DNA of 64,000 nt from positions 744,001 to 808,000 of the forward strand of contig NZ_VKKY01000002.1 in the NCBI RefSeq assembly GCF_008271695.1. Direction: 5' to 3'. This stretch comes from Rufibacter hautae. GTDB taxonomy: Bacteria; Bacteroidota; Bacteroidia; Cytophagales; Hymenobacteraceae. The position numbers and the translations under genes were made by a program. Below the pieces are notes generated by a model. That model was given only the letters and a program-made list of their open reading frames with translations, made no database searches and was not told the DNA's origin. This document shows positions 2,047-62,025 of this stretch, in pieces. Within the stretch, counting starts at the first letter, position 1; every line of letters starts with the position of its first letter.

Positions 2047-2427
2047 TTACACGTTCTTTACCAACGCCCAAACCAGGTTCAGCCAACCGGCGATAAGAAA
2101 TAATCCCCCAATAGGAGTGATGGCACCCATCCACCTGATACCGGTCAGGCACAGGATGTACAGAGATCCAGAGAAAATTAGTATACCGATGAGGAAGCAA
2201 ATACCCGAGACGCGCATGCCGGTAGCCGCCGGGAACTGCGTCATGAGCACGCCCACCAATAAAAGGCCTAAGGCATGGTACATCTGGTACTTCACAGCTG
2301 TTTCAAAGGTTTCGGTGCGGCCTGTCTCGGTAAGCAACTTGGCCAGTCCGTGCGCCCCGAAGGCCCCAATCATCACGCCCAGTCCGCTCAGGAGGGCACC
2401 CAGGATTAATATCGTTTTAATGGTCAT
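2047..2427 (-). CDS. DUF423 family small membrane protein (YgdD-like)
   Basis: A 126-residue protein with four predicted membrane segments. It has the family hallmark GVMIGAFGAHGL near residues 17-28 and YHALGLLLVGVL near 50-61. DUF423 proteins are inner-membrane proteins of unknown function. It lies 21 bp downstream of the yggS-like gene on the same strand and is probably the last gene of that transcript. Its start codon lies inside one of the dispersed 36-bp palindromes (2414-2449). Confidence 0.85.
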   Translation of the reverse strand: MTIKTILILGALLSGLGVMIGAFGAHGLAKLLTETGRTETFETAVKYQMYHALGLLLVGVLMTQFPAATGMRVSGICFLIGILIFSGSLYILCLTGIRWMGAITPIGGLFLIAGWLNLVWALVKNV

Positions 2428-2449
2428 TTTCAGAAATCAGGTTAAAAAT
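2414..2449. repeat. 36-bp dispersed palindrome, copy 1
   Basis: Begins GTTTTAATGG and ends GGTTAAAAAT, with centre CATTTTCAGAAAT. It spans the whole gap between the yggS-like stop and the DUF423 start and includes the DUF423 ATG. Confidence 0.6.
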
Positions 2450-3135
2450 TACTTGGCAAGAGAATAGTCGCGGTTCCCGAAGATGGCGCTGCCTACTCTG
2501 ATCATGGTACTGCCTTCGGCAATGGCCAGTTGGTAATCTGAGCTCATGCCCATGGAAATCTCTTTGAAATGCGGCGCGCCAGGGAAGAACTCCTCTCTTA
2601 ACGCCTCAAAGTAGGTGCGGAGGCGGTAAAACTCCCTTTGCAAATGCTGCTCATCGTTGGTGTTGGTGGCCACGCCCATGACGCCGCAAATGCGCACGTT
2701 TTTAAGCTGGCTGTACTCTGGGGACCTTAGCATCTTCCTGGCTTCCTCCAGATCCAACCCGAATTTGGTTTCTTCCTCAGCAATGTAGAACTGCAAAAGG
2801 CAGTCAATGACGCGGCTGTGTTTTTGGCCTTGTTTGTCAATTTCCTGCAGTAAACGCAAGCTGTCTACCGACTGGATGAGGGACACAAACGGCGCGATGT
2901 ACTTTACCTTATTTGTTTGCAAGTGCCCAATCATGTGCCACTCCACATCCGCCGGGAGCTGCGGTTGTTTCTGCATCATTTCCTGGGCTTTATTTTCCCC
3001 GAAGGCCCGCTGCCCGCCATCGTAGGCCTCCCTGATCAACTCCACCGGGTGGGTTTTAGAAACGGCAATCAGGCGGCAGTTGGTCCCGCTTAACCTACTC
3101 TGGAAATCATGGATGTTTTCTTCAATTGTCCTCAT
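2449..3135 (-). CDS. yggS: YggS family PLP-binding protein
   Basis: A 228-residue single-domain PLP-binding protein of the YggS/PROSC (PLPHP) family, which keeps pyridoxal phosphate homeostasis. Seen here: LIAVSKTHP near residues 25-33, where the Lys binds PLP; FGENKAQE; WHMIGHLQTNKVK; and ISMGMSSDYQLAIAEGSTMIRVGSAIFG near the C-terminus. The chosen ATG at 3135 shares one base with the stop of the VWA gene (TGATG), which implies translational coupling. A longer reading would run into the upstream gene. Confidence 0.9.
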   Translation of the reverse strand: MRTIEENIHDFQSRLSGTNCRLIAVSKTHPVELIREAYDGGQRAFGENKAQEMMQKQPQLPADVEWHMIGHLQTNKVKYIAPFVSLIQSVDSLRLLQEIDKQGQKHSRVIDCLLQFYIAEEETKFGLDLEEARKMLRSPEYSQLKNVRICGVMGVATNTNDEQHLQREFYRLRTYFEALREEFFPGAPHFKEISMGMSSDYQLAIAEGSTMIRVGSAIFGNRDYSLAK

Positions 3136-4184
3136 CAATCTTCTAACGCATTGGTGAAAAAGGTGTTCTTGAGCAGGAGCCACAGCAACAGCAGCACAAT
3201 GGCCCAGCGCAGGTAAATCTGGTAATAGTCGCGGGTGTCGCGGTAGCGGGTTTCTTTGATCTCTGTTTTCTCCAGCCGGTTGATCCGCTGGAATATCTCG
3301 GTGAGGGCGCCCGCATCCTGCGCCCGGAAGAACTGCCCCTCGGCCAAAGAAGCCAACTGCCGAAGCGTTTTCTCCTCCAGACCGGTTTGGATGGTCACCA
3401 TCTTGCCGGTGGAATCGGCCTCCATTTGCACGGTGCCTTCTTTGCCTATGCCCACCGTATAAAGTTTCAACTGGAAAGCATGTGCCAATTGGGCGGCCAG
3501 TTCGGGATCCAAGCTGCCCGCGGTGTTCTCCCCGTCACTGATCAGAATGCAGACCTTAGATTTGGCTTTTGATTCCCGCAGACGGTTAATGGCTACGGCC
3601 AAGGCACTCCCGATGGCGGTGCCGTCCTCTGAGACCATGCCCAGTTTGATGCTTCGGATGCTTTCCCGCACCAATTCATAGTCGGTGGTGAGCGGGGCGA
3701 GGGAAAAAGCGCGGCCCGCAAACACCACTAGCCCGATTCTGTCCTGCACCCGGCCGTTCACAAACTGCAGCGCCACTTCTTTGGCTGCTTCCAGCCGGTT
3801 GGGAAGAAAATCGGTTAGTTCCATAGAGCCGGAAACGTCCATGACCAGCACAATATCAATGCCCTCAGAGGAGAGCTCCACGGTTTCATCGGTTTTCTGG
3901 GGGCGGGCCAGCGCCACCAATACCAGCATCAGGAACAAGCCGAACACCACATCGGGGAGGTAGCGCAGGAGGCTGGTCCAGTGCCAGGTAACGTTACCCT
4001 CAAAAAGGGCCACGTCCATTTTGCGGCGGAACCGCACGGTGAAAAGCCACCGAAGCAGGAACAACAGTGGCACCAACAGAAGCGCATACAGGTACCCCTG
4101 ATTGGCCCAGTCAAAGGATTGCCAGGTGCGCCAAGAGAACCAGTTCAGGTTCAGCCAGGAGAAATCAGCGGGAGCTTGCCACAT
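3135..4184 (-). CDS. BatA-like von Willebrand factor A membrane protein
   Basis: A 349-residue protein with N-terminal membrane segments (about residues 30-50 and 80-95), a VWA domain and a C-terminal membrane helix (about 325-342). The MIDAS metal site is visible as DVSGSM near residue 115, with a conserved Thr/Asp later (TTDYE, SDGENT). This matches BatA/BatB proteins of the Bacteroides aerotolerance type. It overlaps the preceding gene by 20 bp and abuts yggS. With the DUF58 gene further upstream it forms a Bat-like group, but no MoxR ATPase gene is adjacent. Confidence 0.85.
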   Translation of the reverse strand: MWQAPADFSWLNLNWFSWRTWQSFDWANQGYLYALLLVPLLFLLRWLFTVRFRRKMDVALFEGNVTWHWTSLLRYLPDVVFGLFLMLVLVALARPQKTDETVELSSEGIDIVLVMDVSGSMELTDFLPNRLEAAKEVALQFVNGRVQDRIGLVVFAGRAFSLAPLTTDYELVRESIRSIKLGMVSEDGTAIGSALAVAINRLRESKAKSKVCILISDGENTAGSLDPELAAQLAHAFQLKLYTVGIGKEGTVQMEADSTGKMVTIQTGLEEKTLRQLASLAEGQFFRAQDAGALTEIFQRINRLEKTEIKETRYRDTRDYYQIYLRWAIVLLLLWLLLKNTFFTNALED

Positions 4185-5091
4185 TGCGCAGGGAGTCTCT
4201 GATTAAAACATATCGGTAAGCGGCAAACTCGGCGAGCTGACTCAAAGAATCGGCTACCTCGGTTTCATCATCGGAGATGATGTTTCCGTAGATGGCCCGG
4301 TCGCAGACCTTGAGCGCGTTGCTCACGCGTTCGTCTTCTTCATAGTAAGACGCGATTTCTTTGGTGGTAAAGGAGTTGATCTCAGTGTCTTCCAGCTTGG
4401 TTAAATAATTCTTCCACAAAGTGATAGCTCTTTCCAGTTGATCCAGGGTTTTACCTCGCTGGAACCGCTCCCGGGAAGTCTGGAACCGGGAAAGAAACTG
4501 GTGCTGGTCTTTCTGAAGCACGTACAGTTTGTAGCGGTTGTTGATGCTTTTGCCAAACAAAACCCATACGCCGCCAATGAGAATAGCGCCCGCTACCGAG
4601 CCCATGATCCAGTACACATAGTTGAACTGCTCGGGCACAGGTTGTAATTCCGTGGCAGATTTCAGGGGCAAAGGGTCAGAAACGGTGGTGACGTGCTGCT
4701 TGAGGAAAACCGAGTCTGCCGCCGTGACAATCTGCAGGGTGTCTCCGCTGTGGAACAACTGGGCGGTGACCTGCAGCGTCTGCACTGGTTTCAAGCTAAA
4801 GGTGCGCAGAACGTAGATAGTGCTGTCTGTGCTGGTGCCCTTGACGGTATAGGTAGGGTAGAATTCCTTCCGGACCAACTCAAAAGGCGCAAAGGAAAAG
4901 GAAGTATCCGGGAAAACGACCTCGGCCTGAGGCGCGTGCCGCGAGCGCAGCACATACTTCACCGATTGGCCTATCTCCACAGTGTCGCGCAGGAAAAAGC
5001 CTTCTACCTTTATGGTTGGTAGCTGGGCCCAGGAGAAGAATGGAAACAGGCAGAGCAGAAGCCAGCCCGTCTTTTTAAGTATTGGAGACAA
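4165..5091 (-). CDS. Membrane protein of the Bat-like operon (BatD/DUF4381-like)
   Basis: A 308-residue protein with a signal peptide (cleavage after FFSWAQ, near residue 22). A beta-rich periplasmic region with VEGFFLRDTVEIGQ comes next, followed by one transmembrane helix at about 158-180 and a roughly 125-residue helical cytoplasmic tail. The topology and the position just before a VWA gene resemble BatD or DUF4381 proteins. I do not recognise the family from sequence alone, so the name rests on context. The overlap with the next gene implies coupling. Confidence 0.65.
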   Translation of the reverse strand: MSPILKKTGWLLLCLFPFFSWAQLPTIKVEGFFLRDTVEIGQSVKYVLRSRHAPQAEVVFPDTSFSFAPFELVRKEFYPTYTVKGTSTDSTIYVLRTFSLKPVQTLQVTAQLFHSGDTLQIVTAADSVFLKQHVTTVSDPLPLKSATELQPVPEQFNYVYWIMGSVAGAILIGGVWVLFGKSINNRYKLYVLQKDQHQFLSRFQTSRERFQRGKTLDQLERAITLWKNYLTKLEDTEINSFTTKEIASYYEEDERVSNALKVCDRAIYGNIISDDETEVADSLSQLAEFAAYRYVLIRDSLRNVASSR

Positions 5092-5180
5092 TGTCTGTAT
5101 TTATGGGTTTTTAGCTAGATATTCAGCTTTTCGCCCGTTGGCAATGTTGAATGTTGATCATCGGCCTATAAAGCGTGCCT

Positions 5181-5216
5181 GTTTGAAGGCTATTTTTCTG
5201 AAAACTGCCCCTAAAC
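5181..5216. repeat. 36-bp dispersed palindrome, copy 2
   Basis: Begins GTTTGAAGGC and ends GCCCCTAAAC, with TTTTTCTGAAAA at the centre. It lies in the 141-bp gap between the DUF58 gene and the BatD-like gene. Confidence 0.65.
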
Positions 5217-8787: not shown

Positions 8788-8839
8788 AACGGTTTTACGC
8801 TTATTCTCAGAAAATGCACTACAAACCGATAGTTGACAA

Positions 8840-9388
8840 CTACTTGTAAGCCTCCAGTTGCTTCAGTCTTAATTCCACAGAGGCAATCCATTCCAGTTGT
8901 TGGTTTTTGTCCAGGCCGTGTCGGCTTTCCCGGTCATATAAATCTTGCTCTTGGTGCCATTTTTCAAAGGCCTCGCTGGCGTATCTGTTCAAGTCTGCGG
9001 CGCCGCGGTTGCAGGCGTTGGGCAGTTCTTTAAGTCGCTTGCGCAGTTGGCGGGCGTGGAGCTCGGTTAAATCAAAGTGCAGTTGCTCATGGGCCAGCAG
9101 CATCGCCGAGTTTTTGTTGCGGGTCCAGGATTCTTTGGGGTTGAAAACAGCGTCCACTTTGAATTTAAGCTGGTTGTTTTCGCATTTCACCTTCATCTCC
9201 ATGTTGGTGGAGGTGAGGGCGTGGTGTTGGTTTGTAGGCGCGGGACTGCCGGCGAAATCATCCCAGGTGAGGCGCTTCTGCACCGTCCAGGGGATGTCTG
9301 CGGTTGGGGCAATCGGTTCAGGGTTAGTATCAGGAAAAGCGGCCAAAAACAGCGTGCTGATCCAGAGCGGTAGAAAGTAAAATGACAT
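8840..9388 (-). CDS. DUF922 family putative Zn-protease, exported
   Basis: A 182-residue protein with a signal peptide (hydrophobic LPLWISTLFLAAF) and a DUF922 domain. The putative zinc site HEQLH (HExxH) lies near residue 103 in LLAHEQLHFDLTELHARQLR, and RLTWDDFAGSP near residue 38 is typical of the family. The proteins are annotated as predicted secreted Zn-dependent proteases, although activity has rarely been shown. The downstream hairpin ends the transcript. The stop of the MATE gene lies 68 bp upstream on the same strand. Confidence 0.85.
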   Translation of the reverse strand: MSFYFLPLWISTLFLAAFPDTNPEPIAPTADIPWTVQKRLTWDDFAGSPAPTNQHHALTSTNMEMKVKCENNQLKFKVDAVFNPKESWTRNKNSAMLLAHEQLHFDLTELHARQLRKRLKELPNACNRGAADLNRYASEAFEKWHQEQDLYDRESRHGLDKNQQLEWIASVELRLKQLEAYK

Positions 9389-10797: not shown

Positions 10798-11145
10798 ATT
10801 TGTAAAACAGGCCGCAAAGCTACGGCTATTTTCCCTATCCCTAAGGACAAATGTCCAAGACAGCGAGAAGAGCAGATCATCTAAGCTGATTACCTGAAAA
10901 AGCTTAGGAGGGAATCCTTTATGTTGTTAACCGTTTTAAGCCTTCTTTTTCAGAAAAGCCTCTAAAATGATCTCCTTAAACTAGGACGCCTTCAAAACTG
11001 AAAGGTTAACCAACTTATTTTCAATATGACCTAATTGATTTATTGGTTGGGTTTAATGAGCTAAAAGATAGGTTGTTAAGAATAAACACGGATATGCGCC
11101 TTAGCTGATCTAAAAACCACCAGATAGAAGTAATAGGGAATGGAA
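10798..11145. other. Intergenic region, 348 bp
   Basis: Non-coding stretch between the MATE start and the aminotransferase stop, both on the minus strand. It holds one dispersed palindrome (10933-10968) and otherwise AT-rich sequence. No convincing open reading frame or RNA gene is visible. A promoter for the MATE gene presumably lies near 10800-10860. Confidence 0.5.
10933..10968. repeat. 36-bp dispersed palindrome, copy 3
   Basis: Begins GTTTTAAGCC and ends GCCTCTAAAAT, with TTTTTCAGAAAA at the centre. Confidence 0.65.
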
Positions 11146-12240: not shown

Positions 12241-12451
12241 TTTGAATATTGATTGATAATTGTTAGTTGTTGATTGCTAATTGATTGGACTTGCGATAAA
12301 GTTAGGTGTCTTAACTAAATGGTCAATTTCACATGCAAAACAGATTGAAATAATTCTCTATCCTGCATTGGTTCTATTTTAAGAAAAACAGGCCTAATAC
12401 AGGATAGACAAATTATGCAAAGCCGAACAATTAACAATCAACAATCAGCAA
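12241..12451. repeat. AT-rich intergenic region with inverted TTGATTG/CAATCAA arrays
   Basis: At 12246-12286 runs of TTGATTG and TTGTTAG occur, and at 12427-12455 the inverted equivalents CAATTAACAATCAACAATC. The two arms flank the gap between egtD and the aminotransferase and could pair. The centre (about 12371-12396) holds a half copy of the dispersed palindrome (ATTTTAAGAAAAACAGGCC). Confidence 0.45.
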
Positions 12452-13468: not shown

Positions 13469-14761
13469 TTATCTTTTGGCCAGCCTGATGCCGGTGAATT
13501 GCCAGCGTTTGTCAGCGTGGAAGAAATTGCGGTACGTAGGTCTGATGTGGCTTTGGGGTGTAGCGCAGGAGCCACCGCGCAGCACCATCTGGTTCACCAT
13601 GAACTTGCCGTTGTACTCGCCAATGGCGCCCGGCGCGGTCACAAACCCCGGATACGGAAAATAGCCGCTGTAGGTCCATTCCCAGGTATTGCCCAGGAGC
13701 TGCGCCGCTGTTTCAGCATCCTCAGGCAAGTTCGCCGGAACCGGATGGTACATGCCGCTTTCCATGAAGTTGCCCTCGTTCAAAGGGTTTGCATGAAGTT
13801 GGGCCAGGGCTTCCCACTCAAACTCGGTGAGCAACCGGTGCCCGCTCCAGTTCGCGTAAGCCAGGGCCTCGAAAAAGCTGATGTGCGTAACAGGTGCCTC
13901 CAGATCAACCTTCTCCAGGCCGTGCAAAGTAAAATGGTACCACCCGTCCTCCTGGTTCAGCCAGTACAGAGGCGCTTGCCAGCCTTGCTGCTGGCTTATT
14001 TGCCAACCCTCGTCCAGCCAAAGGGTGAAATCGGCGTAGCCGCCGGCTTCTATAAACTTCAGGTACTCGGCATTGGTCACCAGGGTACGGCGGGCCTGGA
14101 ACTCGGCCAGGTAGACTTGGTGCGGTTGCAGCTCATTGTCAAAACAGAAACCCTCGCCCTGGAAGCCGATGTGGTAAAGGCCTGCCGGTACCGTGCTCCA
14201 CTCGTTTTGGGGCTGTTTTTGTAAAATGGAGCCGGAAACAGTGGTTGGTTTAAGCTGATAAGAAGGAAGCAACGGATTGCAGCTCATGATGTATTTGATA
14301 TCGGTGAGGAGCAGTTCCTGGTGCTGCTGCTCATGCTGCAGGCCCAGTTCCATCACAGGGGCAAGCTGCGTGTTTTGCAGATACTTCTCGTCCGTTAGTA
14401 CCTTTTCCATCTCGGCATCCACGTGACGGCGGTACGCGTAAATGTCCTCCAGCGGCGGCCGAGATAAGGTGCCCCGGTCTGAGCGGGCGATGCGGCTGCC
14501 CATGCTGTTGTAGTACGAGTTGAAAAAGAAGGCGTACTGCGGATGGAAGGCCTTATAAGCCGGCAGGTTGGGGAGCAGGATAAAGGTCTCGAAGAACCAG
14601 GTGGTGTGCCCCAGGTGCCATTTAGGCGGACTCACATCGGCCATGGGTTGCATCACGGAATCTTCGGGGGTGAGGGGAGCGCAGATTTTTTCGGTCTGCT
14701 GCCGGATAGCCTGGTAACGGGCCAGCAAATCAGTGACACCGTTCTGTGTGGAGGAAGCCAT
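13469..14761 (-). CDS. egtB: Ergothioneine biosynthesis sulfoxide synthase
   Basis: A 430-residue iron enzyme that joins hercynine to a thiol donor using O2. The N-terminal DinB-like domain supplies the three-His iron site: WHLGHTTWFFETF near residue 50 and LQHEQQHQELLL near 137. The C-terminal FGE-sulfatase domain has NTWEWTYSGYFPYPGF near 360 and LRGGSCATPQSHIRPTYRNFF. It is the first gene of an egtB-egtD pair. No egtC amidohydrolase is present nearby, so the enzyme may use cysteine directly, as type II EgtBs do. Confidence 0.93.
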   Translation of the reverse strand: MASSTQNGVTDLLARYQAIRQQTEKICAPLTPEDSVMQPMADVSPPKWHLGHTTWFFETFILLPNLPAYKAFHPQYAFFFNSYYNSMGSRIARSDRGTLSRPPLEDIYAYRRHVDAEMEKVLTDEKYLQNTQLAPVMELGLQHEQQHQELLLTDIKYIMSCNPLLPSYQLKPTTVSGSILQKQPQNEWSTVPAGLYHIGFQGEGFCFDNELQPHQVYLAEFQARRTLVTNAEYLKFIEAGGYADFTLWLDEGWQISQQQGWQAPLYWLNQEDGWYHFTLHGLEKVDLEAPVTHISFFEALAYANWSGHRLLTEFEWEALAQLHANPLNEGNFMESGMYHPVPANLPEDAETAAQLLGNTWEWTYSGYFPYPGFVTAPGAIGEYNGKFMVNQMVLRGGSCATPQSHIRPTYRNFFHADKRWQFTGIRLAKR

Positions 14762-15954: not shown

Positions 15955-15991
15955 TTTTTTTTAGCCGATTTTTTTCAAAAAAGGGCAAAAC
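15954..15991. repeat. Dispersed palindrome, copy 4 (38 bp)
   Basis: G followed by a T-run, then AGCCGATTTTTTTCAAAA and GGGCAAAAC. It is a slightly longer member of the family, lying between menC and the convergent sirtuin gene, and may serve as their terminator. Confidence 0.55.
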
Positions 15992-15996
15992 GCCGC

Positions 15997-16745: not shown

Positions 16746-16795
16746 GAGCCCCGTTTTGGGTCTGTTTTCATCAAAACAAACCCAAAACGGGGCTC
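16746..16795 (-). terminator. Hairpin between topA and cobB containing a dispersed palindrome
   Basis: A 16-bp perfect outer stem (GAGCCCCGTTTTGGGT with its complement at 16780-16795), one mismatch, then six more pairs around a CATC loop. Its core (16753-16788) is an exact 36-bp member of the dispersed palindrome family. The minus-strand side is followed by a weak T-rich stretch. Confidence 0.75.
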
Positions 16796-16836: not shown

Positions 16837-19284
16837 TTACTCAGCCTTCTTTTTAGGGGCGGCTTTCTTAGTTGTGGTTCCTTTGGTGCCGGTGGCTTTC
16901 TTAGCGGCAGGCTTTTTGGCGGCAGTCTTCTTGGCAGCAGGGGCATCGGTGGCTGGGGCCGCTTTCTTCTTGAAGCCTCCGCGGGCTGGTTTGTCCGGGG
17001 TGGCCTCAGCAAGGTCCAGGCACTGCTGCAAAGTTAGTTCGGCGGGTTCCTGTCCTTTGGGGATCTTTACGTTCTTCTTGCCCACGCAGATGTAAGGTCC
17101 GAAACGTCCGTTCAATACCGTTACCTCTGGGTTCTCCGGGAACGTCTTGATCATCTTCTCGGCATCGGCTTTGCGCTTGGCTTCAATCAGGGCGATGGCC
17201 TCAGGCTCATTGACCAGCAAAGGATCCAGGTCTTTGGGCAGCGAGTAGTACTTGCTGTTGTGCTGGATGTAAGGGCCGAACCGTCCGATGGCGGCTTTCA
17301 TATCCTTGCCCTCGAACTCACCCACCACCCGCGGCAGTTTGAATAATTCCAAGGCTTGCTCCAGTGTGATAGACTCCAGGAACTGACCTTTTCTCAGGCT
17401 CGCATACACAGGTTTGGCATCAGTGCCTTCCACTTCCTCACCCAACTGCACGTAGGGTCCGAAGCGGCCCAATTTGGCGATCAACTTCATGCCAGAGATT
17501 GGGTCAACCCCCAGTTCACGTGCCCCGCTCACGGTAGACCGCTCCACGTTGGCGCTGGTCTCAATGGTTTGATGGAAACTTGAGTAGAAAGTACCCAGCA
17601 TCTTGTCCCACTGCTTTTTACCAGCGGCTATCTCATCAAATTCTTCCTCTACTTTGGCGGTGAAGGAATAGTCAATCACACTTTCAAAATGAGACACCAG
17701 GAAATCGGTCACCACCATGGCAATATCGGTGGGGAACAGCTTGGCTTTTTCGGCGCCGGCCATCTCGGTTTTCTTCTGGGCAGAGATCTGGTCTTTCTCC
17801 AGGGTAAGCACATTGTAGGCTCTTTCTTTTCCTTCGCGATTGTCTTTTTCCACGTACCCACGCTTTTGGATGGTGGAGATGGTAGGTGCGTAAGTTGACG
17901 GTCGCCCGATGCCCATTTCTTCCAGTTTCTTCACCAAACTCGCCTCGGTATAGCGGGGAGCAGGGCGGCTGAACCGCTCGGTGGCCTGCATGCGCTGCAG
18001 GTTCAGAGCCTGTCCTTCGGTCAACGGCGGCAACATGCCTTTCACATCATCGTCGGCCAATTCCTCATCGTCGGTAGACTCGGTGTACACCTTCAGGAAC
18101 CCTTCAAAACGGATTACCTCACCTGTGGCGACCAAGCGCTCAGGCTGTCCGCTTATAGAGATGGTGGCAGTGGTTTTCTCAATCTCGGCATCGGCCATCT
18201 GCGAGGCGATGGCGCGTTTCCGAATCAGATCGTACAAGCGCTGCTCGTTGCGGTCAGAACTCACCTGCAGGGCGGCAAAGTCCGTGGGACGGATGGATTC
18301 GTGGGCCTCCTGCGCTGATTTGGATTTGGTTTTGTACTGACGCGTTTTCACGTAGTTTTCACCAAAAGAGCGCGAAATCTCCGCCGCCGCCGCGTTGATG
18401 GCCTCCTGCGATAAATTCACCGAGTCGGTACGCATGTAGGAGATCTTACCAGCCTCGTACAGGCGTTGGGCCACGGTCATGGTTTGGGCTACTGAAAAAG
18501 ACAGTTTGCGGCTGGCTTCCTGCTGCAGGGTGGAGGTGGTAAAGGGTGGCGCGGGGCTACGCTTGGTTGGCTTTTTCTCAAGGCTTTCTATGCCGTATGC
18601 CGCACCAATGCAGCGCTGTAGGAAATCCTCGGCCTCGGCCTGTGTTTTGAACCGGGTGTTCAGTTCCGCCTCCATACGTTTGCCGCCGGCATCAAACTGG
18701 GCCACCACCTTGTAGGCAGAAACCGCCTTGTGACGTTCTATTTCCCTTTCACGCTCTACTACCACGCGTACGGCCACAGACTGCACGCGCCCAGCGGAAA
18801 GACCAGTTTTAATTTTTTTCCAGAGCACCGGGCTCAACTCAAAACCCACCAGACGGTCCAGCACGCGGCGGGCCTGCTGCGCGTTCACCAGGTTTGTATC
18901 TATAGAGCGCGGGTTTTCTATGGCATTGAGAATGGCGTTCTTGGTAATCTCCCGGAACACGATGCGGCGGGTCTTGGCCTCGCTCAGGTTCAGGGCCTCA
19001 GACAAGTGCCAGGAAATAGCCTCTCCCTCACGGTCCTCGTCGGATGCCAACCAAACCGTTTCGGCCTCCTTCGCTAGTTTCTTCAGCTGCGAAATCACCT
19101 CCCGCTTATCAGCGTTGACCACGTAGGTGGGCTTGAAGCCGTTCTGGATGTCAATGGCGTTATTGTCTTTGGGGAGATCGCGCACGTGCCCAAAGCTGGA
19201 TTTCACAATGAAATCCTTCCCCAGGTACCCTTCAATGGTCTTGGCCTTGGCCGGCGACTCCACAATTACTAAGTTTTTTATCAT
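16837..19284 (-). CDS. topA: DNA topoisomerase I
   Basis: An 815-residue type IA topoisomerase that relaxes negative supercoils. The TOPRIM domain starts at the N-terminus (VESPAKAKTIEGYLG; acidic DEDREGEAI near 105). The active-site tyrosine lies in GKISYMRTDSVNLS near 285. Three topoisomerase C-terminal repeats (each with GRFGPY) lie near 590-745, without Cys4 zinc fingers. The tail is Lys/Ala/Thr-rich (AAKKPAAKK type), as in histone H1-like tails, and probably binds DNA. The ATG at 19284 puts the TOPRIM strand at the start; an upstream start would add nine unrelated residues. Confidence 0.95.
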   Translation of the reverse strand: MIKNLVIVESPAKAKTIEGYLGKDFIVKSSFGHVRDLPKDNNAIDIQNGFKPTYVVNADKREVISQLKKLAKEAETVWLASDEDREGEAISWHLSEALNLSEAKTRRIVFREITKNAILNAIENPRSIDTNLVNAQQARRVLDRLVGFELSPVLWKKIKTGLSAGRVQSVAVRVVVEREREIERHKAVSAYKVVAQFDAGGKRMEAELNTRFKTQAEAEDFLQRCIGAAYGIESLEKKPTKRSPAPPFTTSTLQQEASRKLSFSVAQTMTVAQRLYEAGKISYMRTDSVNLSQEAINAAAAEISRSFGENYVKTRQYKTKSKSAQEAHESIRPTDFAALQVSSDRNEQRLYDLIRKRAIASQMADAEIEKTTATISISGQPERLVATGEVIRFEGFLKVYTESTDDEELADDDVKGMLPPLTEGQALNLQRMQATERFSRPAPRYTEASLVKKLEEMGIGRPSTYAPTISTIQKRGYVEKDNREGKERAYNVLTLEKDQISAQKKTEMAGAEKAKLFPTDIAMVVTDFLVSHFESVIDYSFTAKVEEEFDEIAAGKKQWDKMLGTFYSSFHQTIETSANVERSTVSGARELGVDPISGMKLIAKLGRFGPYVQLGEEVEGTDAKPVYASLRKGQFLESITLEQALELFKLPRVVGEFEGKDMKAAIGRFGPYIQHNSKYYSLPKDLDPLLVNEPEAIALIEAKRKADAEKMIKTFPENPEVTVLNGRFGPYICVGKKNVKIPKGQEPAELTLQQCLDLAEATPDKPARGGFKKKAAPATDAPAAKKTAAKKPAAKKATGTKGTTTKKAAPKKKAE

Positions 19285-19434: not shown

Positions 19435-19911
19435 ATGAAGAATCTCCTATTAATGCGGCATGCCACCGCGGCAGACAAAGCCGTTGAGCAATCAGACTTT
19501 GACCGTGAAATCACCCTGTATGGGCAGCGGCAGGCCGGGGAGGCTGGCCTCTGGCTCAAGAAGCAGAACCTGGTACCTGAGCTAATCCTGTGCAGTACCT
19601 CCCTCAGGACCCAGATGACGCTGGAGCACCTGCTGGAAGGGCTGGGCCAGAAGGTGCCCGTGCAAATGGAGCGCGTGATCTACTACGGCTCTGAGCATGA
19701 CCTATTGGACCTAGCGCACGGCGTGGACGATGAGGTGGATACGCTGCTCTTGTTGGGGCATAACCCCACCGTCGCCTTTTTCGCGTCTACCCTGGCCCAT
19801 GAGGAAGTATCATTCAGTCCGGCTTCCATTGCGCATCTGCATTTCAACGGCTATTCCTGGGAAAACTTGCGGGCGGGCACCTGCAAGCTGCAGACCCTGT
19901 ACCGCGAATAA
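19435..19911 (+). CDS. sixA: SixA-like phosphohistidine phosphatase
   Basis: A 158-residue histidine phosphatase superfamily protein. The catalytic motif is LLMRHATAAD at residues 4-13 (RHG-like RHA). STSLRTQMTLEHLL near 61 and LLLGHNPTVAFFAS near 104 supply the second His. SixA enzymes dephosphorylate phosphohistidine on signalling or PTS proteins. The length fits. It is divergent from topA and lies 121 bp ahead of the chemosensory operon, with a dispersed palindrome in the gap, so it may not be part of that operon. Confidence 0.88.
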   Translation: MKNLLLMRHATAADKAVEQSDFDREITLYGQRQAGEAGLWLKKQNLVPELILCSTSLRTQMTLEHLLEGLGQKVPVQMERVIYYGSEHDLLDLAHGVDDEVDTLLLLGHNPTVAFFASTLAHEEVSFSPASIAHLHFNGYSWENLRAGTCKLQTLYRE

Positions 19912-19917: not shown

Positions 19918-19953
19918 GTTTTGGGCCTGATTTCCTGAAAAGAAGCCCTAAAC
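19918..19953. repeat. 36-bp dispersed palindrome, copy 5
   Basis: Begins GTTTTGGGCCTG and ends AGCCCTAAAC, with TTTCCTGAAAA at the centre. It lies just after the sixA stop. Confidence 0.7.
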
Positions 19954-39268: not shown

Positions 39269-39338
39269 TGTTTGTATACCCTTCCGGTAGATTCATCCGG
39301 GAATTACTTCGGTCCTAAATACCAAAGTTCATTCTTTG

Positions 39339-41621: not shown

Positions 41622-41643
41622 TCTGTAAATGCAATGCTTAACC

Positions 41644-44000: not shown

Positions 44001-44037
44001 GTTAAGCGCCTGTTTTCTGTAAATAGGGCTTAAAAAC
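44001..44037. repeat. Dispersed palindrome, copy 10 (37 bp)
   Basis: GTTAAGCGCCTGTTTTCTG then TAAATAGGGCTTAAAAAC, two bases after the DUF2062 stop. Confidence 0.6.
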
Positions 44038-44221: not shown

Positions 44222-45526
44222 ATGAGCGCTGTTCTGCACGAAAAAGTACTTGACAACTCCCTTAATCTTTTGCTGGAAGGCTTTCCGTTCATCCATAACC
44301 GGGTAAAGCGCTTCCACTCTAACATCTTCAAAACCAGGATCATGTTCCAGAACGTGATCTGCCTTCACGGCGAGGAAGCCGCCAAGGTGTTCTATGACCC
44401 AGATAAGTTCATGCGGTTCCAGGCCATTCCTAACCGAATCCAGCGGACGCTGATGGGCAAAGACGCCATCCAAACCATGGACGGCGAAGGGCACCTGCAC
44501 CGCAAAGCCATGTTCATGTCTTTGATGACGCCAGACAGCCTGTATAAACTGAACCGACTTTTAACCCAACAGTGGCAGGCGGCCATTCACCGGTGGGAGC
44601 ACCAGGAAGAGGTGGTGTTGTTTGAGGAAACCCAGGACCTGCTTTGTCGCGTGGCCTGCGCCTGGACCGGCGTGCCGCTGATCAACGAAGACGTGCGCAA
44701 TCGGGCCAGCGATTTTGCGGCCATGGTAGATGCTTTCGGGGCGGTTGGCCCGAGGCACATGCGGGGCAGAATAGCCCGGAAAAGGGCTGAGGCCTGGATT
44801 GAAGACATTATCCAAAGAATAAGGGATGGCAAACTGAAGGTGCCGGAGAACTCACCTGCCCATGTCATTGCCTTTCACCGAGACATTGAAGACCAACTGC
44901 TGGACCCGCACATGGCGGCGGTGGAGTTGATCAACTTGTTGCGGCCCATTGTGGCCATTGCCTGGTACATTACCTTCGGTGCAGTGGCGCTGCACGAACA
45001 CCCGGTAGCTCGCCGTAAAATTGCTGCTGGCGAAGAAGGGTACGTGGAGATGTTTGTGCAGGAGGTGCGCCGGTATTATCCTTTCGGGCCATCTTTAGGA
45101 AATCGGGTCAAAAACGATTTCACCTGGGGAGGTCACAAATTTAAGAAAGGCACCCTGGTGTTCCTGGATGTGTACGGCACCCTGCATGATGAGCAGATTT
45201 GGGAGAATCCGGATGAGTTCTACCCGTACCGGTTCCGATATTGGGACGGAAGCGCCTTTAACTTCATCCCGCAGGGCGGAGGCGACCACTTCACGGGCCA
45301 CCGCTGCGCCGGCGAATGGGTGACCATTGAGGCCATGAAAGTGTCCATGGTTTTCCTCTCCAGGTACATGGAGTACGAGGTGCCGCCCCAGGACCTGAAT
45401 TTCAGCCTGGAGCGCATGCCCACTTACCCGAACAGCAAGTTCATCATGCGCAACGTACGCGCCGTAGAACACGCCGAAGAGGGAGATGTGAACCAGCTTT
45501 CCAAATGCCCTTTCCACCACGGGTAA
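44222..45526 (+). CDS. Cytochrome P450, CYP152-like fatty acid peroxygenase
   Basis: A 434-residue P450. The heme cysteine lies in FIPQGGGDHFTGHRCAGEW near residue 360. The I-helix region reads NLLRPIVAIAWYITFGAVALHEHP (near 240-263): Arg-Pro replaces the usual acid-alcohol pair, as in P450-BSbeta and other CYP152 enzymes that use hydrogen peroxide directly on fatty acids. The ExxR motif is present in VQEVRRYYPFGP. No ferredoxin or reductase gene is adjacent, which fits peroxygenase chemistry. Substrate and product (hydroxylation or decarboxylation) cannot be told from sequence. Confidence 0.88.
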   Translation: MSAVLHEKVLDNSLNLLLEGFPFIHNRVKRFHSNIFKTRIMFQNVICLHGEEAAKVFYDPDKFMRFQAIPNRIQRTLMGKDAIQTMDGEGHLHRKAMFMSLMTPDSLYKLNRLLTQQWQAAIHRWEHQEEVVLFEETQDLLCRVACAWTGVPLINEDVRNRASDFAAMVDAFGAVGPRHMRGRIARKRAEAWIEDIIQRIRDGKLKVPENSPAHVIAFHRDIEDQLLDPHMAAVELINLLRPIVAIAWYITFGAVALHEHPVARRKIAAGEEGYVEMFVQEVRRYYPFGPSLGNRVKNDFTWGGHKFKKGTLVFLDVYGTLHDEQIWENPDEFYPYRFRYWDGSAFNFIPQGGGDHFTGHRCAGEWVTIEAMKVSMVFLSRYMEYEVPPQDLNFSLERMPTYPNSKFIMRNVRAVEHAEEGDVNQLSKCPFHHG

Positions 45527-45582: not shown

Positions 45583-45618
45583 GTTTTTAGGGTCATTTTT
45601 GCAAATCTGGCTCTAAAC
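45583..45618. repeat. 36-bp dispersed palindrome, copy 11
   Basis: Begins GTTTTTAGGG and ends GGCTCTAAAC. It directly abuts the P450 terminator stem. Confidence 0.65.
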
Positions 45619-45789
45619 GGCCAGTACTGAAACCTGAGCTAGTGACTTCCCTGATTTCTCTAATAGTTGATTTCTGAAGGATTGATTGTCACTTCCGGAT
45701 TGAGGCAGATCGCTAAAGGTGCCTTCTTTTCTATTGGAGTAGGTTACTGCACCTCCATTTTCATTTTTAGTATTTCCGACCATTATCTG

Positions 45790-45823
45790 ATTTAGGCCTG
45801 TTTTCCAGAAGGAAGGTTAAAAC
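45790..45823. repeat. Dispersed palindrome, degenerate copy 12
   Basis: ATTTAGGCCTGTTTTCCAG then AAGGAAGGTTAAAAC. Confidence 0.5.
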
Positions 45824-46073
45824 TAAATTTTGGTTGGGCATAGGGTAAAGGCAGGCGTGCTTTGTCTTATTCTTACAAACCTGAGAAGTGAATCATTGCT
45901 TCTACTTATATTTTAAAATACAAGACCTAAATAGCTAAGGTAAAGAAGTTTAAAGATAGAGGTAATCTACCGAACTAAAACTTTTTTCAGGCTGAAATTT
46001 TTGGAATCAGACTACCTGCGGGTAGGGAGGAGTAGCGGAAAAGAACATACGTCTTACCATTAACAGTAACCAA

Positions 46074-49696: not shown

Positions 49697-49732
49697 GTTT
49701 TCAGGCCGATTTTCTCAAAACAGACCAGAAAC
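49697..49732. repeat. 36-bp dispersed palindrome, copy 13
   Basis: Begins GTTTTCAGGCCG and ends GACCAGAAAC, with ATTTTCTCAAAAC at the centre. It lies between the divergent addB-like and phosphatase genes. Confidence 0.65.
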
Positions 49733-49830
49733 ATAGTTTCAAAAAACCTGGCCAGCCAAATACCCTTCGCTGCCGGTAGATGGAAATGAAACGCACTCGT
49801 AAAAGGCAAGGGAACAAGGATGCAAAGACT

Positions 49831-50514
49831 ATGAACCGATACGCCATTTCAGATATTCACGGATGCTCGAAGACCTTCCGGTACATGGTGGAGCAGGAAC
49901 TGAAATTGAAGACCTATGACAAACTCTACCTCCTGGGCGACTACATTGACCGTGGCCCAGATTCCAAAGGCGTCATTGATTTCATTCTGGAGCTGCGGGA
50001 AGCTAACTTCCAGGTCATAACCCTCTGCGGAAACCACGAAGACTTGATGCTGGACGCCCGGAAAGATCCGGAGTACCCTGAAATGTGGTTGCTCAACGGG
50101 GGAATAGAGACGTTGAAGAGCTTTGAGACCCTGTCGCTGGAAGATATCCCAGACAAGTACTGGCAGTTCTTGGACCAACTACAGATGTACGTGGAGCTGG
50201 ACGATTACCTGCTGGTACACGCCGGATTTGACTTCTCCCATGATTATCCGTTCGATGACACCTACGCCATGCTCTGGATCCGGGACTTTGAGCCAGATCT
50301 CAAGATGATGGGCGGCAGACGCATTGTGCACGGACATACCCCTACTTATTTAACCGAGATTGCCGCGTCTGTGAAGAAACCGGTTTCTGACGTCATCAAT
50401 ATTGACGGTGGCTGCGTTTTCACCTCCCGGCTAGGGTACCTCACGGCCCTCAACCTAGATACCCTGGAACTGCATTCCTTGAAAAACCGGGAAGACGCGG
50501 ATACTTATGCCTAG
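49831..50514 (+). CDS. PPP-type metallophosphatase, paralogue 1
   Basis: A 227-residue calcineurin-like phosphoesterase of the bacterial PPP group (serine/threonine or dinucleotide phosphatases). Metal motifs: YAISDIHGC near residue 4, LLGDYIDRGPDSKGV near 36, LCGNHED near 69, LLVHAGF near 130 and IVHGHTPT near 167. ATG at 49831 puts the first strand at the N-terminus; an upstream ATG adds a basic, unrelated 17 residues. It is followed 144 bp later by a close paralogue. Confidence 0.88.
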   Translation: MNRYAISDIHGCSKTFRYMVEQELKLKTYDKLYLLGDYIDRGPDSKGVIDFILELREANFQVITLCGNHEDLMLDARKDPEYPEMWLLNGGIETLKSFETLSLEDIPDKYWQFLDQLQMYVELDDYLLVHAGFDFSHDYPFDDTYAMLWIRDFEPDLKMMGGRRIVHGHTPTYLTEIAASVKKPVSDVINIDGGCVFTSRLGYLTALNLDTLELHSLKNREDADTYA

Positions 50515-50526
50515 GAGGGTTCCTCC

Positions 50527-50562
50527 GTTTAGTGGCCGTTTTTACAAAATCATGCCTGAAAC
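50527..50562. repeat. 36-bp dispersed palindrome, copy 14
   Basis: Begins GTTTAGTGGCCG and ends GCCTGAAAC, with GTTTTTACAAAAT at the centre. It lies between the two phosphatase paralogues. Confidence 0.65.
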
Positions 50563-50658
50563 GGTTCTTAAACCCATCCAAAGCTTTTCCACCCTTAGTA
50601 GCAAAGCATTACCCTGAATGAATCCGTAGAATGGACATTTACCTTAAACCTCCTGGTT

Positions 50659-51333
50659 ATGAGCCGCTATGCCATTTCAGACATTCACGGATGCCTTAAA
50701 ACCTTCCAGTATCTGGTGGAAGAGGTCATCAATCTAAAGTACCGTGATCAACTGTACCTTTTAGGCGATTACATAGACCGGGGTCCCGATTCCAAAGGCG
50801 TGCTGGACTACATCATGAAACTTCAACAAGACAGTTACCGCGTGCACGCGCTCTGCGGAAACCACGAGGACATGGCCATGAAAGCCCGCGATACTTCCAT
50901 TTACCACACCTCCTGGATGTTCAACGGCGGCAAAGAAGCCCTGAAGAGTTTCCGGGCCCAAAAAATTGAGGACATCCGGCCTATGTACTGGGAGTTCATG
51001 GCCCAACTGGAACTCTACATTGAACTAGACGATTACCTGCTGGTACACGCCGGCTACAACTTCTCGGTCCCAGACCCCGCCTCTGACCGGCACACCTTAC
51101 TCTGGTCCCGAAATTTTGAGGTGGACAAACGCAAACTGGGTAACCGAAAAATCGTCCACGGCCACACGCCCATCCCCCTAGACCAAATGAAAGCCTCCCT
51201 GGCAAAACCCGTCCCAGACGTGATCAACATTGACGGCGGTTGTGTCTTCAAGAGCAGAACAGGAATGGGCTACCTTACCGCCTTGAACCTGGATACCCTG
51301 GAACTGCTCACCGTCGCAAATAGGGAGGATTGA
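50659..51333 (+). CDS. PPP-type metallophosphatase, paralogue 2
   Basis: A 224-residue paralogue of the preceding gene with the same motifs (YAISDIHGC, LLGDYIDRGPDSKGV, LCGNHED, LLVHAGY, IVHGHTPI). By eye more than half of the residues match, and the C-terminal block DVINIDGGCVF...YLTALNLDTLEL is nearly identical. This is a tandem duplication that has diverged, probably in substrate or expression. Confidence 0.88.
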   Translation: MSRYAISDIHGCLKTFQYLVEEVINLKYRDQLYLLGDYIDRGPDSKGVLDYIMKLQQDSYRVHALCGNHEDMAMKARDTSIYHTSWMFNGGKEALKSFRAQKIEDIRPMYWEFMAQLELYIELDDYLLVHAGYNFSVPDPASDRHTLLWSRNFEVDKRKLGNRKIVHGHTPIPLDQMKASLAKPVPDVINIDGGCVFKSRTGMGYLTALNLDTLELLTVANRED

Positions 51334-52105: not shown

Positions 52106-52107
52106 AC

Positions 52108-53616: not shown

Positions 53617-54082
53617 GGTATTAGGTTAATTACTTCCTAGAGTACGAAGAAACCAACAGAAAGTGTTTTGCCCAAATAAGGAAGTTGTGAATTGAATATC
53701 AAAGAGGTGAGGGGTTTTACGCCTCGTGATCAGGGGCTCCTTTAATTCTTGTCTATCACCATGATAGCGCTTGTGGGCTATTGCAGGCCGGTATACTGGG
53801 GGAAAGCAGGTTCCCGCCGGGCTTTGCAGGGTAAGATTGTCTCTGATATGGGAGAGCCCAAAAGCCTGCTGAGGTGCTGCTGTGTGAGTCTTTTTCCCTC
53901 GATTAGGGTAGTGGTTTTCTAATATAGGTTTGGCTTAATATTTGCGGCGCAAGAATTGGCCGTTTTCCTGTTTCTGACCTGTTTTAGAGAAAAGAGGCTT
54001 AGAAGGGAAGAAGCTCTAAGGAGAGCTGTCCAGCGGTTATACTACTTTATATCACCTGTTCTTTCACCTAAACCTAAACAAA
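53617..54082. other. Intergenic region between divergent genes, 466 bp
   Basis: Non-coding stretch between mqo and a small exported protein gene. It holds one dispersed palindrome (53970-54005); nothing else was recognised. Confidence 0.5.
53970..54005. repeat. 36-bp dispersed palindrome, copy 15
   Basis: Begins GTTTCTGACC and ends GGCTTAGAAG. Its core TGTTTTAGAGAAAAGAGGC is identical to that of the copy at 54930. Confidence 0.6.
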
Positions 54083-54929: not shown

Positions 54930-54965
54930 GCTTTTGGCTTGTTTTAGAGAAAAGAGGCAGAAAAT
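54930..54965. repeat. 36-bp dispersed palindrome, copy 16
   Basis: Begins GCTTTTGGCTTG and ends GGCAGAAAAT, 14 bp before the HAD start codon. It shares TGTTTTAGAGAAAAGAGGC with copy 15. Confidence 0.6.
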
Positions 54966-55670: not shown

Positions 55671-55744
55671 TATAATTTCTCAGCAAATTCGAATGGTTGG
55701 GTAATGTTCTTTTTGAGTCTTTGCTGATTGTTTAACAGAATTAA

Positions 55745-55779
55745 GTTTCCAGCCTCTTTTGTAAAAACAAGCCAAAATC
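55745..55779. repeat. Dispersed palindrome, copy 17
   Basis: GTTTCCAGCCTCTTTTGTAA then AAACAAGCCAAAATC. It lies between the addA-like stop and the next gene on the minus strand. Confidence 0.55.
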
Positions 55780-59167: not shown

Positions 59168-59594
59168 GGGTAAAGTCAGGTGGAGGCCTTTGGAAGCCCT
59201 CCGCGTTTATGGGGTGTTTTGACGAAATTAGGCAAAAAATAGGAGAGGTGAGGGGAAAGATGAAGGGTTTGTCTTTTCTGTTTTTGTTTGGTTGCTTGTG
59301 TTTGCGTAGTCCGCTTGCGCGGGCAGACGTTTGTTGTGTACTATCAGTTTTCTTATGCAATTGTAGTCCGCTTTTGCTGGCGAGGGGCCGCTGTTTGCGT
59401 GGGTGCATGAGCTTTATTGTTTCATAGCTGGGCTCCGTGCGCTCACGGCCGCGAGGCCCCGCCTTCCGGCATCGCGCTGCTGTTTTAGCCTTGGCCGGTT
59501 GGCCTGCCGCTCTCGCGGCACCAGGTCTAAAACAAAGGCGCTCAACCGAAAGGCTGGAATTGGTGCATTTAGTTAAAGCCTTTGCAGCTCGCAA
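59151..59594 (-). other. Repeat-encoded reading frame in arm B
   Basis: A 147-codon frame, rich in Arg/Lys/Ser/Pro, overlapping the addA-like start. It shares ARCRKAGPRGRER with the frame in arm A. It contains no domain and probably reflects repeat composition rather than a gene, but the partly conserved amino acids leave some doubt. Confidence 0.25.
59205..59240. repeat. 36-bp dispersed palindrome, copy 18
   Basis: Begins GTTTATGGGGTG and ends GGCAAAAAAT, with GTTTTGACGAAAT at the centre. It lies 38 bp upstream of the addA-like start. Confidence 0.55.
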
Positions 59595-59750
59595 CAGCGA
59601 ATCACCCCTGTTTCTCCTTAGTCAAGGAGGCAGCTATTGAGAAGCCTTCATTCCCCTCCTCGGAGGGGTAGGTTAATTTTCCCTGGTTCAAGTCTGTGAC
59701 TTGGACCTAAAATGATCTGAAGTTTGCAACTTCAGTGAGGCGAGAGCCTC
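59340..59750. repeat. Long inverted repeat, arm B
   Basis: The inverted partner of arm A (51548-51962). Identical blocks include 59439-59475 (GC-rich, with GGCCGCGAGGCC) and CGAAAGGCTGGAATTGGTGC. Between blocks the two arms have diverged or carry different insertions. Confidence 0.8.
59695..59750 (+). repeat. Composite REP-like cluster 2
   Basis: GGTTCAAGTC...GACTTGGACC, a short variable spacer, TGAAGTTTGCAACTTCA, then GAGGCGAGAGCCTC. The middle hairpin differs from clusters 1 and 3 by paired changes that keep it self-complementary. Confidence 0.8.
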
Positions 59751-61391: not shown

Positions 61392-61510
61392 GGGTAATGT
61401 GCTGGGTTTAATGTGCTAATGAGGTAATGTGCTGATGTGCTAATTGGGGAAGGTTTACTTGGGAGGATAGTCTGCTTTGTAGATGATCCGACTGATGGTT
61501 GGCAGGAGCA

Positions 61511-61545
61511 GTTTCATGGTCATTCTGATAAAACAGCCGCTAAAT
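61511..61545. repeat. Dispersed palindrome, copy 19
   Basis: GTTTCATGGTCATTCTGAT then AAAACAGCCGCTAAAT. Confidence 0.55.
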
Positions 61546-61629
61546 GTAAGAAGTGTTGATTTATGTATTGGATCATAGTTGGCTTAAGACGATGTAGTTA
61601 AGAGTGTATAGATATAAAGAAAATTATAT

Positions 61630-61693
61630 GGTTCAAGTCTGTGACTTGGACCTATTATGACCGGCAGTTTGCAACTGCCGTGAGGCGAGAGCC
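61630..61693 (+). repeat. Composite REP-like cluster 3
   Basis: GGTTCAAGTC...GACTTGGACC, spacer, CGGCAGTTTGCAACTGCCG, then TGAGGCGAGAGCC. Same order and orientation as cluster 2. Confidence 0.8.
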
Positions 61694-61738
61694 CAGGAGT
61701 AGTTCATCCTTTTTATGGAGTAACCCTGGCTAGTACAA

Positions 61739-61832
61739 CGCTAGCGCGAGCTTCCAGCTCGTGCCTTCACATAGTTGATTTGGCCAAGGTTCAGGTATGC
61801 GTGCGGACACGAGCTGCAAACTCGCGCCAGCG
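61739..61832. repeat. Paired GCGCGAGCT hairpins
   Basis: Two self-complementary units (GCGCGAGCTTCCAGCTCGTG at 61744-61763 and CACGAGCTGCAAACTCGCG at 61808-61826) are inverted with respect to each other and separated by 44 bp. They could form a cloverleaf-like or long-stem structure. Confidence 0.7.
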
Positions 61833-61989
61833 GGAACTTAATAGTCTTGACTCAGTGCAGTTACCAACTTCCATGCGTGATAAGTCCCAGACCTAGCCTT
61901 GAACCATGTTTCTCTTTGAACCATGTTCTTCAGGGAATGCATCAGGCGCTGCTTTAAGGGAAGGAACCATGTAGGCGGAAGAGGCTGCT

Positions 61990-62025
61990 GTTTAGCGGCT
62001 GTTTTCGCGAAAGTGGGCCAGAAAC
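61990..62025. repeat. 36-bp dispersed palindrome, copy 20
   Basis: Begins GTTTAGCGGCTG and ends GGCCAGAAAC, with GTTTTCGCGAAAG at the centre. It lies 103 bp before dnaE. Confidence 0.7.

Follow-up and report, generated by a model that had tools for sequence, protein, structure and literature searches.

A genus-restricted 36-bp four-box dyad in the gaps between Rufibacter genes, possibly the operator of a lineage-specific DNA-binding protein

The DNA analysed here, referred to as the window, is a stretch of 64,000 nucleotides from Rufibacter hautae (NCBI RefSeq assembly GCF_008271695.1, contig NZ_VKKY01000002.1, positions 744,001 to 808,000). Its intergenic gaps carry many single copies of a 36-bp imperfect palindrome, hereafter the element. 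Sites of the same kind occur by the hundred in all 16 Rufibacter genomes examined, and the element is restricted to this genus among the genomes searched. The explanation preferred here, with moderate confidence, is that the element serves as the operator of a putative DNA-binding protein, dimeric or tetrameric and confined to Rufibacter, and marks the boundaries of transcription units.

Abundance in the window and in the genome

An initial annotation of the window described 15 exact and six near copies, and claimed at least 20 in all. Each of the 15 exact coordinates is a 36-bp dyad of the design described. The six near copies are also real, but their positions were only partly right: a symmetric position weight matrix (PWM) built from 16 window copies leaves 44001 in place and re-centres the other five by 1-3 bp, at 15957, 39338, 45789, 55744 and 61510. 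The PWM gives 27 window matches of at least 20 bits, two of them in coding DNA and seemingly protein-driven; at least two further matches score 18-20 bits (35941 and 61510). Copies beyond those first listed lie at 1960, 8791, 9315, 12365, 14204 and 35941. The same PWM finds 32 positions of at least 16 bits (neighbouring registers counted separately), compared with a mean of 0.0 in 10 first-order Markov shuffles. The sites are given below without strand. G014 is the genome paired most closely with R. hautae (G000), and "initial" denotes a copy of the initial annotation.

1960-1995: element starting directly after the stop codon of gene 1504-1959; 31.4 bits; same place in G014
2414-2449: element (initial); dyad at the coordinate, PWM
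5181-5216: element (initial); dyad, PWM; orthologous in G014
8791-8826: weak element; PWM; G014 orthologue strong
9315-9350: weak element; PWM; gap occupied in 8/13 congeners
10933-10968: element; gap occupied in 12/13 congeners
12365-12400: element, weak here; PWM; gap occupied in 10/13 congeners
14204-14239: element in open reading frame (ORF) 13469-14761, in the linker between DinB_2 and FGE-sulfatase domains; cross-species PWM, Pfam
15957-15992: element (initial, as 15954) in a convergent gap; PWM; 11/13 congeners
16753-16788: element at the apex of a terminator-like hairpin with flanks gagcccc and ggggctc; 15/15 congeners; flank and arms covary
19918-19953: element of the non-hairpin class, 6 nt past the stop of 19453-19911; 15/15 congeners; no arm covariation
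30790-30825: element (initial); dyad, PWM, cross-species comparison
33728-33763: element (initial); dyad, PWM, cross-species comparison
35941-35976: weak element, about 19 bits; G014 orthologue strong
38376-38411: element at the apex of a terminator-like hairpin that has a T tract after it; 14/14 congeners; strong compensatory change in flank and arms
39338-39373: element (initial, as 39339); PWM; 5/11 congeners
44001-44036: element, 1 nt past the stop of 43736-43999; 9/9 congeners
45583-45618: element (initial); dyad, cross-species comparison
45789-45824: element (initial, as 45790); PWM, cross-species comparison
49697-49732: element of the non-hairpin class in a divergent gap; 9/9 congeners; no covariation
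50527-50562: element (initial); dyad, cross-species comparison
53970-54005: element (initial); dyad, cross-species comparison
54930-54965: element (initial); dyad, PWM
55744-55779: weak element (initial, as 55745); PWM
59205-59240: element (initial); dyad, cross-species comparison
61510-61545: weak element, about 18 bits (initial, as 61511); G014 orthologue strong
61990-62025: element (initial); dyad, cross-species comparison
18344-18379: PWM match in the topoisomerase I gene, not counted as an element; below 15 bits in 8/15 congeners, residues largely kept
45080-45115: PWM match in ORF 44222-45526, not counted as an element; below 4 bits in 3/9 congeners (G004, G001, G007)

The last two matches were excluded because they are lost in several species while the encoded residues largely stay; for 45080 the residues are kept in G001 and largely kept in G004 where the score is lost. 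Both are probably driven by the protein sequence.

Since the PWM was trained on the window, an exact palindromic core (RTTT-N9-TTT-N4-AAA-N9-AAAY) was counted over the whole genome as an independent test, with the same pattern reversed as control. It occurs at 842 sites, compared with 1 for the control; being palindromic, the pattern matches the same sites in both orientations. In 464 kb of the genome an iterated PWM scores 245 sites at 14 bits or more, 207 of them at 22 bits or more. Densities obtained with species-specific PWMs are 461/Mb in R. hautae and 429, 371, 371 and 400/Mb in four congeners, which extrapolates to about 2,000-2,700 sites per genome in these five species.

Distribution across genomes

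The exact core is found at 295-1,615 sites in each of 15 congeners (control 0-5), at 0-10 sites in 21 genomes of other genera of the family (control 0-6), and at 0-22 sites in 22 genomes of the order (control 0-13). A stricter pattern, applied to a sample of the phylum, gives 633 sites in R. hautae (control 1) and 0-3 in 157 other Bacteroidota (control 0-5). Alternative box spacings, scanned in samples of sister genera and in G037, a genome from another family of the order, are not enriched. A chance or compositional artefact is already refuted. The pattern is AT-rich and palindromic, and unrelated genomes of the order do reach 22 matches, but the excess over control and shuffled DNA in R. hautae and the hundreds of sites in every genus member dispose of the idea that such dyads are no commoner than expected.

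A 14-mer resembling a half-site is abundant in G037. In 24 contexts inspected the similarity spans most of 145 nt, so the 14-mer is part of a longer, unrelated repeat. This dispersed repeat of ~145 nt or more contains TTTTAGCCTATTTT, which has 84 forward and 86 reverse matches with one mismatch allowed (control 5 and 8).

Small secondary contigs are poor in sites. Eight 20-kb stretches from three genomes, possibly plasmids but untyped, hold 6 sites in 160 kb, compared with 190 in 400 kb of the R. hautae chromosome and 14 in 60 kb of the G008 chromosome. This count leaves out R. hautae contigs C6 (7.5 kb, 3 PWM matches, all in ORFs), C7 and C8 (0 each), and G008 contig C3 (7.5 kb, 3 matches). 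C6 resembles G008 C3, which has an rRNA operon at its end; the contigs left out are therefore taken as chromosomal.

Anatomy of the site and species dialects

The idealised consensus consists of four boxes, GTTTT-N6-GTTTT-N4-AAAAC-N6-AAAAC. The boxes are spaced 11, 9 and 11 bp apart, so all four face one side of the helix. Variants of the boxes exist: most inner boxes of G012 read CATTT, and most outer boxes of G004 read GTTTA. The geometry is rigid, with the canonical spacing in 34/34 paired half-sites of G004, 36/37 of G005, 34/36 of G012, 34/36 of G013 and 116/137 of R. hautae; a dyad of two half-sites at a nearly invariant spacing is what a protein operator should have. Self-complementarity of the central dinucleotide is avoided in four of the five species (in G012, 5 observed and 25.8 expected); G005 is the exception, with 17 observed and 15.6 expected.

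Each of these species has its own dialect. PWMs from independent samples carry 45.0 (G012), 42.6 (G004), 39.6 (G005), 43.5 (G013) and 31.3 bits (R. hautae). In two compared regions the species' own PWM scores best at 13/14, 13/16, 11/15, 13/16 and 21/27 sites, in the same order. At five widely conserved gaps the own PWM is best at 4/4, 4/5, 3/4 and 3/3 sites, and for the loose R. hautae set at 2/5.

Conservation at orthologous positions

Synteny is kept across the genus, so the same gaps can be compared between species. One set of pairwise identities, other than those given below, mixed overlapping local alignments and was used for ranking only. Over 19 gaps and 234 species-gap cells (R. hautae excluded), a site is present in 122. 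Ten of the 19 gaps are all-or-none over the congeners, five always occupied and five never, and presence per gap has a variance of 0.165, compared with a maximum of 0.055 in 5,000 simulations. In the closest pair, G000 and G014, all 32 comparable gaps agree (21 with and 11 without elements) at an 18-bit cut, which admits two weak R. hautae sites of 18-19 bits on which the full agreement depends. Recent mobility is not seen in this pair.

In 23 orthologous site pairs from these two genomes, identity is 0.89 at the T/A positions, 0.68 in the arms, 0.63 in the centre and 0.59-0.61 in ungapped 12-nt flanks. By gapped alignment, the rest of the element-bearing gaps is 0.79 identical and gaps without elements are 0.87 identical. 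Over five species pairs, orthologous T/A positions are 0.89-0.94 identical, compared with 0.36-0.61 for ungapped flanks. This is the pattern expected of a protein operator, with purifying selection at contact positions and little elsewhere. The initial annotation was right to suspect selection: positions are common to up to 16 species, and the T/A tracts are kept while the flanks saturate. Arm identities in orthologous and random pairs are 0.68/0.42, 0.79/0.68, 0.56/0.52, 0.61/0.52 and 0.59/0.50. Orthologous arms thus resemble each other more than random ones do, which favours vertical descent over continual recopying, weakly so in G009-G010. In gap 11146/12452, which holds the element in 10/13 congeners, G010 carries a long palindrome of another kind (ggggcaatcccttgtggttgccctttg...).

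The copy at 14204 lies within a gene. It scores 16.8-41.2 bits in the 14 species with an alignable stretch (at least 20 in 13 of them), and the residues vary; the linker that holds it is 2-3 amino acids longer than in five sister-genus genomes. Strong scores despite drifting residues, in a linker so little lengthened, suggest that this site arose in existing sequence and was selected as DNA. It should be noted that this is a single case. At this copy there is no 36-bp insert relative to an empty orthologous site, as a miniature inverted-repeat transposable element (MITE) would leave.

Hairpins and double-strand DNA sites

Two structural classes of site were found: terminator-like hairpins, which make up about a quarter, and non-hairpin sites. 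In 197 intergenic sites of R. hautae, the arms are no more complementary than expected at positions 7-13; a weak excess is confined to positions 5-6 and the adjacent flank. When 393 intergenic sites pooled from five species are divided by the length of the stem formed by their flanks, in 235 this stem is 0-3 bp long and the arms do not covary (10.71 pairs of 16, compared with 10.82 shuffled), 65 are intermediate (11.62 and 11.42), and in 93 the stem reaches 6 bp or more and the arms covary (13.76 and 12.91). The long stems are commonest 20-60 nt past stop codons, where they occur in 51% of tandem and 43% of convergent sites. In this hairpin class TTTT follows downstream in 35%, and AAAA precedes upstream in 15%.

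Individual loci divide in the same way. Flank and arms covary strongly in gaps 15997/16837 (16 species) and 37588/38497 (15 species), with a shuffle p of about 0.002. Neither covaries in gaps 19453/20033 and 46737/49831, and in gap 43736/44222 the arms covary weakly (p 0.016) and the flank does not. Selection on structure, as initially proposed, therefore holds for the terminator-like subset but not for most other sites, whose arms do not covary.

Wobble bias was used as an indicator of RNA function and was not significant. At non-hairpin sites no excess of G-U over A-C on the transcribed strand was significant (162 and 149; 73 and 70); the hairpin class leans to G-U, again without significance (core 37 and 30, p 0.46; flank 32 and 20, p 0.13). 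Because most sites lack arm covariation and no significant G-U/A-C bias was found, the dyad is read mainly as a signature of double-strand DNA.

Placement relative to genes

Placement was counted with gene calls from a simple gene predictor. In the R. hautae sample 93% of sites of at least 22 bits and 96% of those of at least 26 bits are intergenic; predicted coding DNA holds 5% and 2%. The initial description of the element as intergenic is thus mostly accurate, but not strictly so, given these coding matches and the copy at 14204. Similarly, copies described as single and never in arrays can be close neighbours: 19 pairs lie less than 110 bp apart among 601 neighbour distances pooled over all Rufibacter samples. 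Clusters of sites that might mark the gene of an autoregulated binder were looked for in these samples, and pairs only were found.

Convergent, divergent and tandem gaps are all occupied, as first reported. Among gaps of at least 50 bp, a site is present in 39/47 convergent, 88/154 tandem and 27/54 divergent ones. In tandem gaps the site lies at a median of 52 nt past the stop and 151.5 nt before the next start. The placement between units, the rarity in genes and a presence that depends on the gap suggest that the element marks boundaries or has an architectural role.

Alternative explanations

The elements could be bidirectional intrinsic terminators of one family, in which the upper stem is unusual and conserved and selection acts on the RNA hairpin; this is regarded as improbable. 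About a quarter of sites resemble such terminators, having the lower stem of at least 6 bp, in some cases a T tract, and a position mostly 20-60 nt past a stop; TTTT is enriched downstream, and compensatory change is strong at two loci. At one of these, gap 15997/16837, five of six readable sister-genus sequences have an ordinary hairpin-plus-T terminator (by eye), and in Rufibacter the element lies within a longer hairpin. Most elements are unlike terminators, however: the 235 flank-poor sites have neither lower stem, T-tract excess nor covariation, the core also occurs in divergent gaps and in one ORF, the G-U bias is not significant even in the hairpin class, and ordinary terminators share gaps with elements. 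These are found at similar rates in gaps with and without the element and in sister genera, so these rates give no indication of a termination role for the element. The idea that the element replaces terminators was likewise rejected; in R. hautae, ordinary terminators occur in 59% of 39 convergent gaps with the element and 75% of 8 without it. An operator or upstream promoter site of a global transcription factor controlling the next gene is less probable still. Some conserved sites do adjoin promoter-like sequence, lying upstream of it (by eye), and TAnnTTTG, which we take to be a promoter motif, occurs 48 times downstream and 13 times upstream of the element (seven 20-nt bins on each side of 286 tandem or divergent sites). 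This excess is expected because the promoter of the next gene lies there; the promoter link is weak and is accounted for by the layout of the gaps. Convergent gaps, which need no promoter, are the most often occupied, and the distance from element to start is broad.

A mobile palindrome, similar to repetitive extragenic palindromic (REP) sequences or MITEs, is unlikely but deserves more weight than either of these. In this view a transposase or conversion would have multiplied it, bursts and homogenisation would have given each species its own consensus, and some copies would have been recruited as terminators. The high information content, the tight dialects, some identical cores and the differing copy number per gap between some species agree with it, as does an apparent local duplication carrying an element in G009 (by eye). 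REPs have intergenic copies enriched at 3' ends, and so does the element. The arguments on the other side are that most sites lack arm covariation, that the closest pair agrees in every comparable gap, that secondary contigs hold few sites, that the copy in an ORF is no 36-bp insert, and that the flanks of the identical cores inspected differ (by eye). The Y1_Tnp profile PF01797 (E<=0.001, 59 genomes) matches 15/16 genomes of the genus and 18/21 of sister genera; G006 has no match, yet it has 704 exact sites. Element presence is uncorrelated with PF01797, and the link to a REP-associated tyrosine transposase (RAYT, Y1 type), which the initial annotation had put forward as worth checking, was rejected. 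Its suggestion of an active mobile element finds no backing in these results either.

Comparison with known families

The initial annotation knew of no named family of this form, and this still stands. Rfam 15 gives 0 matches above gathering score in the window. No account of the element was found in searches of the open-access literature on Rufibacter or Hymenobacteraceae repeats, Bacteroidetes nucleoid sites or bacterial palindromic repeats; the main text of PMC12306157 was found to mention neither Rufibacter nor Hymenobacter.

REPs, together with bacterial interspersed mosaic elements (BIMEs) and RAYTs, are the closest in general appearance: short imperfect palindromes that are high-copy, intergenic, enriched at 3' ends and species-specific. 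Membership of the element in this group fails. A stem under structural constraint is absent from the 235 flank-poor sites and two conserved loci, and present in the terminator-like subset and two other loci, and in some species arm positions 5-7 covary weakly. The presence of a Y1/RAYT transposase does not go with that of the element. Unlike REP/BIME sequences, the element has many genus-wide positions, a rigid 36-bp four-box layout and mostly single copies. REP heads of the GTAG/GTGG type adjoin the palindrome, according to PMC2817692. A GTAG/GGAG head stands beside 19 of 786 arm flanks of the element, where about 31 are expected (GTGG not counted).

Two other groups may be compared. DNA uptake sequences (DUS) of Neisseriaceae are short, non-palindromic and also found within genes. 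They share with the element a high copy number and dialects between related species, and have a receptor protein, ComP; the element differs in being 36 bp long, dyad-symmetric and rare in genes. Footprints of the IHF type cover about 35 bp, and MatS and parS are specific sites of nucleoid or chromosome proteins. These resemble the element in footprint length or dyad and in chromosome-wide spread, but the element is far more numerous, four-box, gap-specific and found in one genus only.

Other repeats in the window

Gene 20915-26353 encodes a protein of the methyl-accepting chemotaxis type, 1,812 aa long, in which about 13-14 HAMP matches were found; its DNA contains 276-nt tandem units. Another intergenic repeat, distinct from the 36-bp element, has two 65-nt copies (59684-59748 and 61629-61693) which are 89% identical. 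Low-complexity tandem repeats of the ACAACTGGTACC type occupy 41292-41626, just outside predicted gene 41736-43121. At 49830-50888, a tandem pair of ~70% identical stretches, one in gene 49831-50514 and the other in gene 50659-51333, encloses a 36-bp element.

Proposed function and significance

From these patterns we infer protein binding, an oligomeric binder, a boundary function and co-evolution of binder and sites. Each element would be a double-strand DNA operator. Its binder would be a putative Rufibacter-restricted protein, either a dimer whose chains each carry two DNA-reading units or a tetramer, which would contact the four GTTTT/AAAAC boxes on one face of the helix. The roughly 2,000-2,700 sites per genome would label the gaps that separate transcription units, as marks of the nucleoid or of transcription boundaries, and those 20-60 nt past a stop codon would often have become the upper stem of a terminator hairpin. 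The preference of the binder may drift slowly, with the sites following in place, giving one dialect per species. Of the initial suggestions, a protein-bound element is the one that fits best, with the binder a putative one.

Several observations weigh against the operator explanation. Arm covariation appears in G005 at position 6 (z 5.1), in G012 at positions 6-7 (z 3.7-3.9), and more weakly elsewhere. Isolated half-sites occur (80/216 in R. hautae), and the similar rates of ordinary terminators in gaps with and without the element do not point to a termination role. Nine of the 19 gaps are mixed across species, the agreement of the closest pair rests on its 18-bit cut, and four other species pairs each have 3-4 discordant gaps beside 6-9 matched elements; slow gain or loss of sites thus occurs. 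On the other side, two of these discordant gaps have kept their length (176/176 and 273/273), which would be predicted if point changes create and erode sites. PF00216, searched over 35 genomes, has no genus-specific copy (other DNABII families were not tested); the DNABII link was rejected on this basis, and the co-occurrence with a nucleoid protein gene that the initial annotation had in mind was not seen for PF00216. Finally, the information content of 31-45 bits is far above the ~12 bits estimated to be needed for about 2,000 sites in ~5 Mb. Such an excess fits copied DNA better. Distinct cores number 46/52 in G004 and 54/60 in G012, the rest being identical; in the other three species all are distinct. 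The dialects may have arisen either because the binder changed and the sites followed, or by homogenising copying. Copying is favoured by the excess of information and by the identical cores of G004 and G012. Change in place is favoured by the positions and idiosyncrasies that orthologous sites have in common and by the ORF case; it is given more weight, though not decisively.

A more far-reaching version of the operator explanation is genome-wide punctuation, which is put forward tentatively. A lineage-specific architectural protein, bound to four-box sites in most longer inter-operon gaps, would insulate transcription units, and the sites (2,000 or more) would have been rewritten in place as its specificity drifted, one dialect per species.

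Thousands of long sites in one genus, together with control-level counts in the sister genera searched, place the origin of a chromosome-wide feature inside a shallow clade. Not every abundant intergenic palindrome should be filed as a REP or a terminator, and in this case hairpin copies can be told from DNA-site copies by the covariation of their arms. If a protein does read these sites, bacteria would have in it a site-specific factor for architecture or boundaries whose target set is unusually large, and the Rufibacter dialects would be a natural series of binder and site co-evolution.

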